This document shows, piece after piece, positions 825-20,611 of a stretch of DNA of 64,000 nucleotides; position 1 is the stretch's first letter, and every line of letters starts with the position of its first letter. A program made the position numbers and the translations under genes. The DNA comes from Haloglycomyces albus DSM 45210. Lineage in GTDB: Bacteria; Actinomycetota; Actinomycetes; Mycobacteriales; Micromonosporaceae. Under the pieces are notes generated by a model. The model was not told where the DNA came from. It saw nothing but the letters and a program-made list of their open reading frames with translations, and did not search any database. The stretch lies in NCBI RefSeq assembly GCF_000527155.1, contig NZ_AZUQ01000001.1:3051889-3115888 (forward strand). The letters are read 5' to 3'.

Positions 825-960
825 TTGACCTCCTCCCCGCGGCTAAGGCCGGGGGATTCCAACCGGTGAGACCGGTTGGCGCACGAGCCCTCGCGGGTGT
901 GCTGGTTCCTGCTTCACAGACTGACTCATGTCTCCGTCTCCACAGGCTGAGACCGCAAGC
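825..960 (-). ncRNA. candidate omega-RNA scaffold at the tnpB 3' end
   Basis: In TnpB systems the guide RNA overlaps the 3' end of tnpB and ends at the element's right end, with the guide copied from the flank. Here two consecutive hairpins precede the boundary: CCAACCGG/CCGGTTGG at 859-879 and the bipartite hairpin at 835-855. The related element at 20.4 kb has both hairpins with compensatory base changes, so the structure is conserved and not only the sequence. If active, the guide would begin at 824 going leftwards (CCAGCGGAGTCGG...). The 5' end of the RNA is a guess. Confidence 0.55.
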
Positions 961-2111
961 CCGGCGGCCTTAAGGATGTTTCTCGCCGCGTTCACGTCCG
1001 CATTCGCCCGATGCCCGCAGGCCGTGCAGCAGAAACTCGCTTGGCTATCGCGGTTGTTTGCTGCACAGTGCCCGCAGGCATGACAGGTCTGTGACGTGTA
1101 CGCAGGATGGATCGTGACCAGCTTGGTTCCGGTGTACCGGGCCTTGCTGGACAGTGCGAGTTCGAGCCGGTGCCATCCTTTGTCGAGGATGGCCCGGTTG
1201 AGTCCGGCTTTCGCCTTGACATTCCGCTTACTCGCACGCGCAGTCATGTTCGTGGTCTTGAGGTCTTCCAGCACGACCACGGCGTTGTCGGACGCGATCC
1301 GGTGCGCCACCTGCGCGGTGAAGTCGCCGCGCCGATCGGTGATCCGGCAGGACAGACGCCGCAGCCGCATCAACGTCCGGCCCCACGACGCCGAGCCCTT
1401 CCTCTGCCGGGCCAGCTGCTGCTGGAGGCGCTTATACCGCTTCACCTCGCCGGGCGTGACGAACGCGCGGTCATGGAACCGGCCGTCCGACGTGACCGCC
1501 GCATAGGCGACACCCCGATCGATCCCGACCGCCGCGCCAGGGTTGGCGTGCCGCTCAGGCGTGGTCTGGTCGTCGTCCACAAGAAACGATATCCACCACT
1601 GACCTGCCTTAAACGATACGGTGGCCGACCGTATTGGGCCACCGAGAGCACGTGTGGAACGGTAGGTGGCCCACCCGAGTTTGGGGAGCTTCACTCTCCC
1701 CCATTTCCGGTTGATCCGCTCCACGGCCATGGGTTTCGGGTCAGGAAACCGAAACGACGGAGACCACCGGTGCTTCACTCTCCACCGGACGGTAAACGTC
1801 CCATGCTCCCGGCACGCCCGGTCGAGATCACGAAGCGTTTGCTGGAGGAGGTGCGACGGCGCGACTTTCAGCCATTCTAGTCCGGGTTCGCGTTTCGCTT
1901 CGGCCAGTTGGCGGGCTTGTGGAACGTAGTTCGCCCATGCTCCTTTGCGACGCGCCTCCCGGCGTTGATCCAGCGCGGCATTCCACACCGCCCGGCAGAC
2001 GCCTCCGTACTCGGTGCACGCTTGGGCCTGTTCGGGGGTGAGCTTGAGACGAAAACGGCGACCGGTCAACATGCACACCACCTTATCGTTGGGGTCTGAC
2101 ATCGCGGTCAT
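843..2111 (-). CDS. tnpB: RNA-guided nuclease TnpB
   Basis: This is a 422-residue TnpB of the IS200/IS605 OrfB family, an RNA-guided DNA nuclease that promotes retention of its element. The RuvC-like catalytic triad appears intact: Asp198 (GIDRG), Glu282 (VVLEDL) and Asp372 (ADVNAARN). The zinc ribbon between them has Cys343-x2-Cys346 and Cys362-x2-Cys365. The N-terminal helix-turn-helix region begins LTPEQAQACTEYGGVCRAVWN. The last 40 or so codons run through the guide-RNA scaffold. An in-frame ATG at 2102 (MSDPND) is an alternative start; neither has a strong ribosome binding site. It looks functional, but transposition would need a TnpA acting in trans. Confidence 0.9.
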   Translation of the reverse strand: MTAMSDPNDKVVCMLTGRRFRLKLTPEQAQACTEYGGVCRAVWNAALDQRREARRKGAWANYVPQARQLAEAKREPGLEWLKVAPSHLLQQTLRDLDRACREHGTFTVRWRVKHRWSPSFRFPDPKPMAVERINRKWGRVKLPKLGWATYRSTRALGGPIRSATVSFKAGQWWISFLVDDDQTTPERHANPGAAVGIDRGVAYAAVTSDGRFHDRAFVTPGEVKRYKRLQQQLARQRKGSASWGRTLMRLRRLSCRITDRRGDFTAQVAHRIASDNAVVVLEDLKTTNMTARASKRNVKAKAGLNRAILDKGWHRLELALSSKARYTGTKLVTIHPAYTSQTCHACGHCAANNRDSQASFCCTACGHRANADVNAARNILKAAGLAVSACGDGDMSQSVKQEPAHPRGLVRQPVSPVGIPRP

Positions 2112-2122
2112 TGATGTGCTTA

Positions 2123-2142
2123 CCCCACGGCTAAAGCCAGGG
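2123..2142. repeat. left-end hairpin of the TnpB element
   Basis: On the minus strand this reads CCCT-GGC-TTTA-GCC-GTGGGG, an imperfect hairpin just upstream of tnpB. It resembles the right-end hairpin at 835-855 and the left hairpin of the deleted element at 20265-20285. Confidence 0.7.
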
Positions 2143-2186
2143 CCCTGCGCACTACGAACCTCCGATCAGTTCTCGATGGAGACGAC

Positions 2187-19674: not shown

Positions 19675-20254
19675 CGGACGCAGTCAGTCCACACGCTGCT
19701 CGGGATGTTCCAGCGGCTCTATTAGTTCGATGAGATGGCTCATCGGCCCGTTTCCGCTATTTTGCATTCAGGGTCCGTCGACCACCCCTGAATCGCCCAC
19801 CTCTTGGGGCAGGCGTTTTTCAGGATTACTTGCGGGAACTACACTTCTCGTAAGTTACATTGTGGACAGTCGTGAGTATCTTTTTTAGCTTTTTTATTTT
19901 CTTTTTCCCGAAATTAAAAATAATCCAATAAATCGGCCCTCACGATGCCGTTGCTACATTCAGATTACGGAGACACCTAGCTCCCGCCGTATTGACGGAT
20001 ACTTCTGGTCGCGATGCTTTCGCAGCCCTCGTTCGGCCGACCCACATCTCGAAGCCAAGGTCTCCAGACGTGCTCGATAAAAGAGTCTCGCGCCAAATTT
20101 CCGGCAGACAGGATCGTTTGTACCTGGGGTTGAGTACGGCCGGCCGCTTTCCGGGCCGTCTACGGCGGCCTCAGGGCGTTAATGCAGTTCAAAGCAGGTG
20201 AAAACCGGGCGAGCGTCTGCCCGAACGACATCGTTTTCCTGATCGGAGATTCCA
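19675..20254. other. gene-poor stretch with an AT-rich tract
   Basis: I see no credible gene on either strand. At 19880-19945 there is a run rich in T followed by A (TTTTTTAGCTTTTTTATTTT then AAATTAAAAATAATCC), far more AT-rich than its surroundings. It could be an upstream promoter element for a transcript, a nucleoid-protein site or a remnant of a transferred segment. Confidence 0.5.
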
Positions 20255-20532
20255 GCGGCGCAGACCTCCGGATTTGTCCGTGGGGTTAGCCGTTCACAAC
20301 GGTGCGCGGTTGAATACTTGAGTCCGAAGCAAGCCGCCCGCGCAATATCAGTAAACGGTATCCGGGCAACTGCGATAGCCAAGCAACCGCCTACGCCGCA
20401 GGGCTTGCGGTGTCAGCCTGTGGAGACCGCGCCACCGGGAGGTCGACGAATCAGGAACCAGTGGCCCCGCGAGGGGACCATGCCAACCTTCGGGTTGGAA
20501 TCCCCCGGATTTATCCGTGGGGAGGAGGTCAA
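20255..20532 (+). mobile_element. tnpB-derived MITE with omega-RNA-like end
   Basis: The element is bounded by two related hairpins: left at 20265-20285 (CCTC-CGGA-TTTG-TCCG-T-GGGG) and right at 20502-20522 (CCCC-CGGA-TTTA-TCCG-T-GGGG), ending in GGAGGAGGTCAA like the intact TnpB element at 825. Between them only the last part of tnpB remains, reading CDSQA directly joined to AAGLAVSACGD and then TNQEPVAPRG. The intact copy has about 22 residues between these two motifs and some 350 residues before them. In both elements the left and right hairpins share the same inner stem (GGA/TCC here, GGC/GCC in the intact one). It is a non-autonomous element that may still make a guide RNA. Confidence 0.75.
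20483..20532 (+). ncRNA. solo omega-RNA 3' scaffold candidate
   Basis: Two hairpins precede the element's right end: CCAACC-TTCG-GGTTGG at 20483-20498 and the bipartite hairpin at 20502-20522. The intact element has the same pair, but with stem CCAACCGG/CCGGTTGG and a different loop, and with G-C in place of A-T pairs in the second hairpin. The predicted guide would start at 20533 (TGTTGTCCGATGC...). Whether it is transcribed is unknown. Confidence 0.5.
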
Positions 20533-20611
20533 TGTTGTCCGATGCTTCAGCGCCCACGTCGGGATTGATATCAGTGGAGTCGCGTGGAATCCGAGTCAAT
20601 AACGCTTTAGT

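Follow-up and report, generated by a model that had tools for sequence, protein, structure and literature searches.

TnpB uses an RNA from the right end of its transposon, with a guide derived from the flanking DNA, and cuts beside a transposon-associated motif (TAM); TnpB and guide RNA supplied from separate plasmids form an active complex, and the target of ISDra2 is TTGAT (PMC8612924). The omega-RNA, or reRNA, of IS200/IS605 TnpB (ISDra2, PMC8612924; survey, PMC10278001) is about 150 nt long, with a scaffold made up of the 3' end of tnpB and the right end of the element, a subterminal hairpin beside the guide and a guide taken from the flank. PATEs (palindrome-associated transposable elements), known from Haloquadratum (PMC3119063), and a PATE-like element known from Halanaerobium hydrogeniformans (PMC7290912), are short transposase-free derivatives of IS605 elements with subterminal palindromes and no target duplication, and some of them also keep the tnpB 3' end and the full right end (PMC3119063, PMC7290912). 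MITEs mobilised in trans are multicopy, carry no coding gene and have ends in common with an autonomous relative.

We have analysed a stretch of 64,000 nucleotides from Haloglycomyces albus DSM 45210 (contig NZ_AZUQ01000001.1; hereafter the window) that holds a short element resembling all of these. It shares the features listed above for PATEs, but while no guide RNA, promoter or P0-like stem-loop has been described for PATEs, this element has a complete covarying omega-RNA. That RNA has the same scaffold as the omega-RNAs of TnpB, and is of similar length with the same hairpin and guide arrangement, but it occurs without tnpB, has a -10-like box of its own, and has the coding spacer between a stem-loop, P0, and the first scaffold helix, P1, cut to 3 nt. 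Unlike trans-mobilised MITEs, which it resembles in copy number, lack of a gene and ends, it has no terminal inverted repeats or target duplication (as in the Y1 type) and contains a functional-looking RNA gene. PATEs and omega-RNAs are known kinds, and we regard the guide-only combination as a variant of them. A search of the openly accessible literature found no earlier description of guide-only TnpB elements. For IscB, a related nuclease, mention has been made of omega-RNAs that stand alone.

From the comparisons presented here we consider it probable that the element is a non-autonomous IS200/IS605 element of the PATE type that acts as a mobile, self-promoted guide-RNA gene, served in trans by TnpB and formerly also by TnpA. 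Its parts would be a left-end hairpin, a short spacer, a -10-like box, an RNA of ~170 nt comprising P0 and helices P1-P6, and a guide read from the flank (Table 1).

Copies and insertion sites of the guide-only element

A DNA search of the single-contig genome (3,535,419 bases) found, besides the window copy, five further full copies of 289-290 nt at 95-97% identity, so the window element is not a chance occurrence; the same search matched the right-end regions of three TnpB elements at 74-75% identity, together with several short fragments. Agreement among the six copies runs from CGGAG to GGTCAA between unrelated flanks, and no target is duplicated on the right. The preliminary description had placed the element at 20255-20532 and proposed a genome search for further copies. 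All the copies found end at the same base, in keeping with 20532 as the end; the start proves to be 20244, after TGAT at 20240-20243, and position 20255 falls within the left hairpin. To the left of the copies, TGAT is replaced by TTGAT followed by T in L002 and by TTAT in L006; TGAT also lies 5' of the TnpB elements and of most of the tiny elements described below. A left target without duplication fits IS200/IS605 insertion 3' of a short target.

The element is multicopy, too short to encode a transposase, and bears near-terminal palindromes like those of the TnpB element; its only trace of tnpB is a 42-aa match to the tail, which sets it apart from an autonomous IS605 element. The fused tail (NCDSQA..AAGLAVSACGD) is present as first described, as is the end GGGGAGGAGGTCAA common to the guide-only and TnpB elements, and within each element the left and right hairpins do share an inner stem (GGA/TCC in the short element, GGC/GCC in the TnpB element). 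Derivation from tnpB as a MITE is borne out by the five further copies, the covariance models and the pair counts. In L005 the left-end stem carries a compensatory double change (AGCGAC/GTCGCT), pointing to selection on the transposon ends as well.

Table 1. Positions of the guide-only element, its parts and related features (window coordinates, unless a locus is named)
Feature	Position	Strand	Basis
Whole guide-only element, 289 nt, one of six genomic copies	20244..20532	+	Copy search (95-97% identity) and alignment
TGAT, presumed target site / TAM, 5' of element	20240..20243	+	Precedes 4 of 6 copies
Left-end hairpin: outer stem AGCGGC...GCCGTT, inner CCGGA..TCCG	20254..20294	+	Folding z -2.8
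-10-like box	20352..20357	+	TAAACT in five copies, TAAACG in window copy
Stem-loop P0: GGGC / GCCT, inner TGC/GCA, loop GATAGCCAA	20364..20392	+	52/52 pairs, 13 standalone sequences
Omega-RNA scaffold P1-P6 of guide-only element, 137-138 nt, ending at guide boundary	20396..20532	+	R1 E 1.9e-18
Right-end hairpin P6 (TCCCCCGGA..TCCGTGGGGA)	20501..20526	+	Alignment, pair counts
Presumed guide (flank, different per copy)	20533..20552	+	Divergence right after GGTCAA; ISDra2 guide convention (PMC8612924)
Intact TnpB-only element, same group as guide-only element	825..2164	-	Right end 825, left end 2164, TGAT 2165-2168
tnpB, 422 aa; OrfB_IS605 and Cas12f1-like TNB domains	843..2111	-	Domain matches
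Omega-RNA scaffold of TnpB element	825..967	-	Covariance model E 1.6e-25
P0 counterpart inside tnpB zinc-finger codons	1022..1068	-	10-bp stem, same 9-nt loop GATAGCCAA, z -5.06
Tiny elements	L010 G000:C1:1025191; L013 3356403; L014 1913613; L015 718035; L037 2067224		

Scaffold, P0 stem-loop and -10-like box

The genome holds three intact TnpBs, the other two being 95-96% identical to that of the window. The scaffold folds into helices P1 (CCGCA/TGCGG), P2 (CCTG/CAGG), P3, P4, P5 and P6, which is the fold of the TnpB-subfamily scaffold, and its subterminal hairpin lies at most 10 nt from the guide, as in an omega-RNA. When the scaffolds of the six copies are aligned with those of the three resident TnpB elements, the orphan L012 and L053 from a relative, pairing is found in 96.4% of 411 cells, and 8 of 38 pairs (23 cells) have changed on both sides with pairing kept; no shuffle out of 500 gave two-sided counts as high, and sliding the partner makes every measure collapse. 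Between the MITE and resident TnpB scaffolds, 5 of the 38 pairs have changed two-sidedly with pairing kept (P ~1e-5 under random placement). The best compensatory changes had gone unmentioned in the preliminary description and lie in helix P4 (G66/U88, U67/A87, G68/C86 and G69/C85). The hairpin pair that it did cite, GGC/GCC versus GGA/TCC, is a true compensatory change. Its other example, CCAACCGG/CCGGTTGG versus CCAACC/GGTTGG, we reject as covariation: the stem is shortened and the loop differs, with no compensatory change. The scaffolds of TnpB relatives with 54-58% protein identity covary in P1, P2, P3 and P6.

R1, a covariance model built from TnpB-linked scaffolds only, matches all six copies at E 1.7e-20 to 1.9e-18 and the orphan L012 at 2.4e-16, the E-values of these home-made models being rough. 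Together with the pair counts, the models support the view that a covarying omega-RNA scaffold has been kept. The R1 search of the genome returned no further TnpB-less scaffold below E 0.01; six copies and one orphan are without tnpB, and hence so are seven of the ten scaffolds in the genome. Among the matches listed for relatives, which were searched with stricter filters than the home genome, a TnpB of at least 300 aa lies upstream in 79 of 95 scaffold loci, and several of the others end at contig ends. Single-sequence folding of the scaffolds gives modest z-scores (-1 to -2.3), which we do not use as support. No Rfam family reaches its gathering score in the window, and the loci give only weak sub-gathering matches, which shows that no described Rfam family covers this scaffold; membership of Rfam is not required of omega-RNAs. 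We note a weak match to the archaeal HgcC RNA in L001, the locus of the window's guide-only element (1694-1816 of that locus; 23.8 bits, E 0.09, gathering score 50), which is probably due to chance. The orphan L012 (G000:C1:152629-152773, minus strand) is single-copy; the DNA upstream of its scaffold could form a left-end-like hairpin before P1, and no P0 was seen there.

P0 was compared in 13 standalone sequences, namely ten loci from another genus, g12, the window-type element and two Streptomyces versions; these loci are partly related by descent (L235, L237 and L240 are orthologous) and are not fully independent. In all 13, P1 is directly preceded by a stem-loop whose loop is conserved (GCGANAACCAAGC; GCGATAGCCAAGC in the window-type element), with exactly 3 nt between the two. 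The four outer pairs are kept in all 52 cells across nine sequence versions, a count that none of 20,000 shuffles reached (shuffled mean 42.3). A TANNNT box lies 6-7 nt upstream of P0 in 12 of the 13 loci, against a background of 0.2% per position; in a consensus scan no -35 element or sigma-70 promoter passed. In the resident TnpB genes, the counterpart of P0 is located ~70 nt before P1, inside the coding sequence, so the guide-only elements give the impression of having lost the coding spacer that separates P0 from P1. We also considered whether P0 corresponds to the inhibitory mRNA region of AmaTnpB and dropped the idea, as that region adjoins RuvC-II and P0 lies in zinc-finger codons.

Mobility and related loci in other genomes

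A domain search of the genome found no Y1 transposase (PF01797). The genome has one serine recombinase domain; the open frame that contains it, at C1:24466, is 520 aa long, far exceeding the length of a typical IS607 TnpA. On a Mycobacterium avium plasmid there is a complete related element with a Y1 tnpA and a TnpB 53.6% identical, and a Y1 TnpA is therefore the likely helper that the genome would have lost. A TnpB search of a wider contig set found only distant Aerococcaceae loci, and a loose search with the left-end pattern gave mostly noise.

Several tiny elements of ~55 bases consist of a left-end hairpin fused with the terminal bases of the right end. They resemble the 52-bp terminal-only PATEs of Haloquadratum, which have been attributed to repeat-mediated deletion (PMC3119063), and are probably solo forms that arose by deletion between the two hairpins. 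At L011 (G000:C1:2032838) there is a 40-base near-palindrome in which the right-end hairpin stands between GGTCAA in both orientations.

A second mobile family is found on the plasmid NZ_CP108478.1 of Streptomyces mirabilis NBC_01248, which gives 17 matches to the standalone RNA and 23 to the whole element. The ~240 kb of it that were examined contain six full 339-nt copies at 98-100% identity and one partial copy, and no TnpB match was found in these stretches. Each 339-nt copy has different upstream DNA, starts at TCAT|CGGGAT (TCAT being the left target of this family), ends in GTCAA and is followed by a different flank. A copy on the plasmid NZ_CP109486.1, at 83% identity, differs at 38 of 76 spacer sites (50%) versus 18 of 191 RNA sites (9%; Fisher 3e-12), and its changes in the outer stem of P0 keep pairing. 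With the sensitivity used, the standalone RNA was not matched in viral contigs or phage records.

In g12, a single-copy scaffold locus (L167, the same as L230) led to further TnpB-less loci. L230, L231, L232, L234, L235, L237, L238, L240, L242 and L245 have the layout of the window-type element: box, P0, 3 nt, scaffold and guide. R3, a model built on the standalone RNAs of g12 and Streptomyces with the window-type element left out, matches all six copies (E ~1e-11, 50-53 bits), whereas the TnpB-linked scaffolds of the same genome score 35-40 bits. The preliminary description had proposed a guide-only unit mobilised and guided in trans, and this proposal is supported indirectly by the TnpB-less layout in other genera, by the multicopy Streptomyces element and by the presence of TnpBs without a Y1 transposase.

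Three of the g12 loci, L240, L237 and L235 (in G068, G186 and G084), are orthologous standalone loci in three species, with RNA identity of 73-78% versus 26-55% for the DNA just upstream; two of them have guides that match at 17 of 20 bases, and L235 has a 46-base insertion with another P0 after the RNA. The three loci are possibly domesticated. Elsewhere, L165 (G169:C1:1177269-1177570) is a single-copy, clean internal deletion of tnpB with its junction ~5 nt before P1 of the scaffold.

Alternative explanations and meaning

In the alignment of the six copies, variable sites number 20 in the first 101, 1 in the 50 that cover the box and P0, and 9 in the 139 of the scaffold. The first 101 sites differ from the remainder (10 variable sites of 189; best-split permutation p 0.0035) and from the box/P0 block (p 0.002); the scaffold compared alone with everything upstream gives p 0.05 with six copies. 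In both mobile families the RNA segment is 4-5 times less variable than the 5' or spacer part. The conserved structure could have been inherited from a tnpB-bearing ancestor, and the element might then be an inert end-remnant, an ordinary PATE in which a deletion happened to leave the omega-RNA and whose fold was maintained only for as long as it carried tnpB, with no RNA active today. The literature describes IS605 elements that lost their core by repeat-mediated deletion (PMC3119063) and a PATE-like element in which the tnpB tail survives together with the entire right end (PMC7290912); relatives also have single 5'-truncated remnants, and the genome is without a transposase. We nevertheless consider an inert remnant unlikely: the copies vary least in the promoter/P0 block, the Streptomyces element has a preserved RNA segment beside a spacer that has diverged to 50%, P0 covaries in loci that have no TnpB, and the layout of box, P0 and scaffold recurs.

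We note that the box/P0 block varies at one site only, namely the final base of the -10-like box, and that the copy with the change is that of the window. The window copy also has three changes in helix P3. Because of the changed box and these three changes it is probably the least functional of the six, and it may be inactive.

Another reading is that the RNA binds TnpB mainly to titrate or redirect it, sparing other sites or regulating genes, in the manner of TldR-type derivatives. The orthology of the g12 loci in three species, and the guide match in two of them, are what such a regulator might show, but in the mobile families the insertion site gives each copy a guide of its own, which suits retention and not a fixed target; we regard a decoy or regulator as somewhat less probable still than an inert remnant. 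Y1 transposases of IS200/IS605 elements need subterminal hairpins, and the left- and right-end hairpins covary as expected of their sites, but that only single-stranded DNA structure is selected for transposase binding, with the RNA fold as a by-product, is very improbable, given that P0 and P1-P5 lie outside the subterminal hairpins and yet covary, and that the tiny elements with end hairpins alone have no P0-P5.

If the element is a mobile guide-RNA gene, its RNA would be transcribed from its own internal promoter and would bind TnpB made by intact elements elsewhere in the genome; the ribonucleoprotein would then cut the donor site that excision leaves empty (TGAT plus flank), and repair from the sister copy would restore the element. 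Mobility would have come from a Y1 TnpA acting in trans and since lost from the genome. The MITE scaffold is only ~75% identical to the resident TnpB scaffolds, so that the resident TnpBs may or may not accept it.

We are inclined, by a modest margin of belief, to see in these loci a class of actinobacterial mobile elements, consisting of ends and a self-promoted guide-RNA gene, that would exploit the transposase and nuclease of others and would have arisen or spread in at least three lineages (the window genome, g12 and Streptomyces). The pattern suggests small DNA parasites that borrow the RNA-guided scissors of another element. If this is true, the RNA helix P0 upstream of the usual scaffold merits testing in TnpB tools, and the natural trans action of TnpB guide RNAs becomes directly testable. 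Such elements would be an intermediate stage between omega-RNAs that are tied to a transposon and guides that are encoded apart, like those of CRISPR, and a guide RNA alone would be a selectable selfish unit, with a MITE persisting by reprogramming a foreign nuclease to its own empty site.
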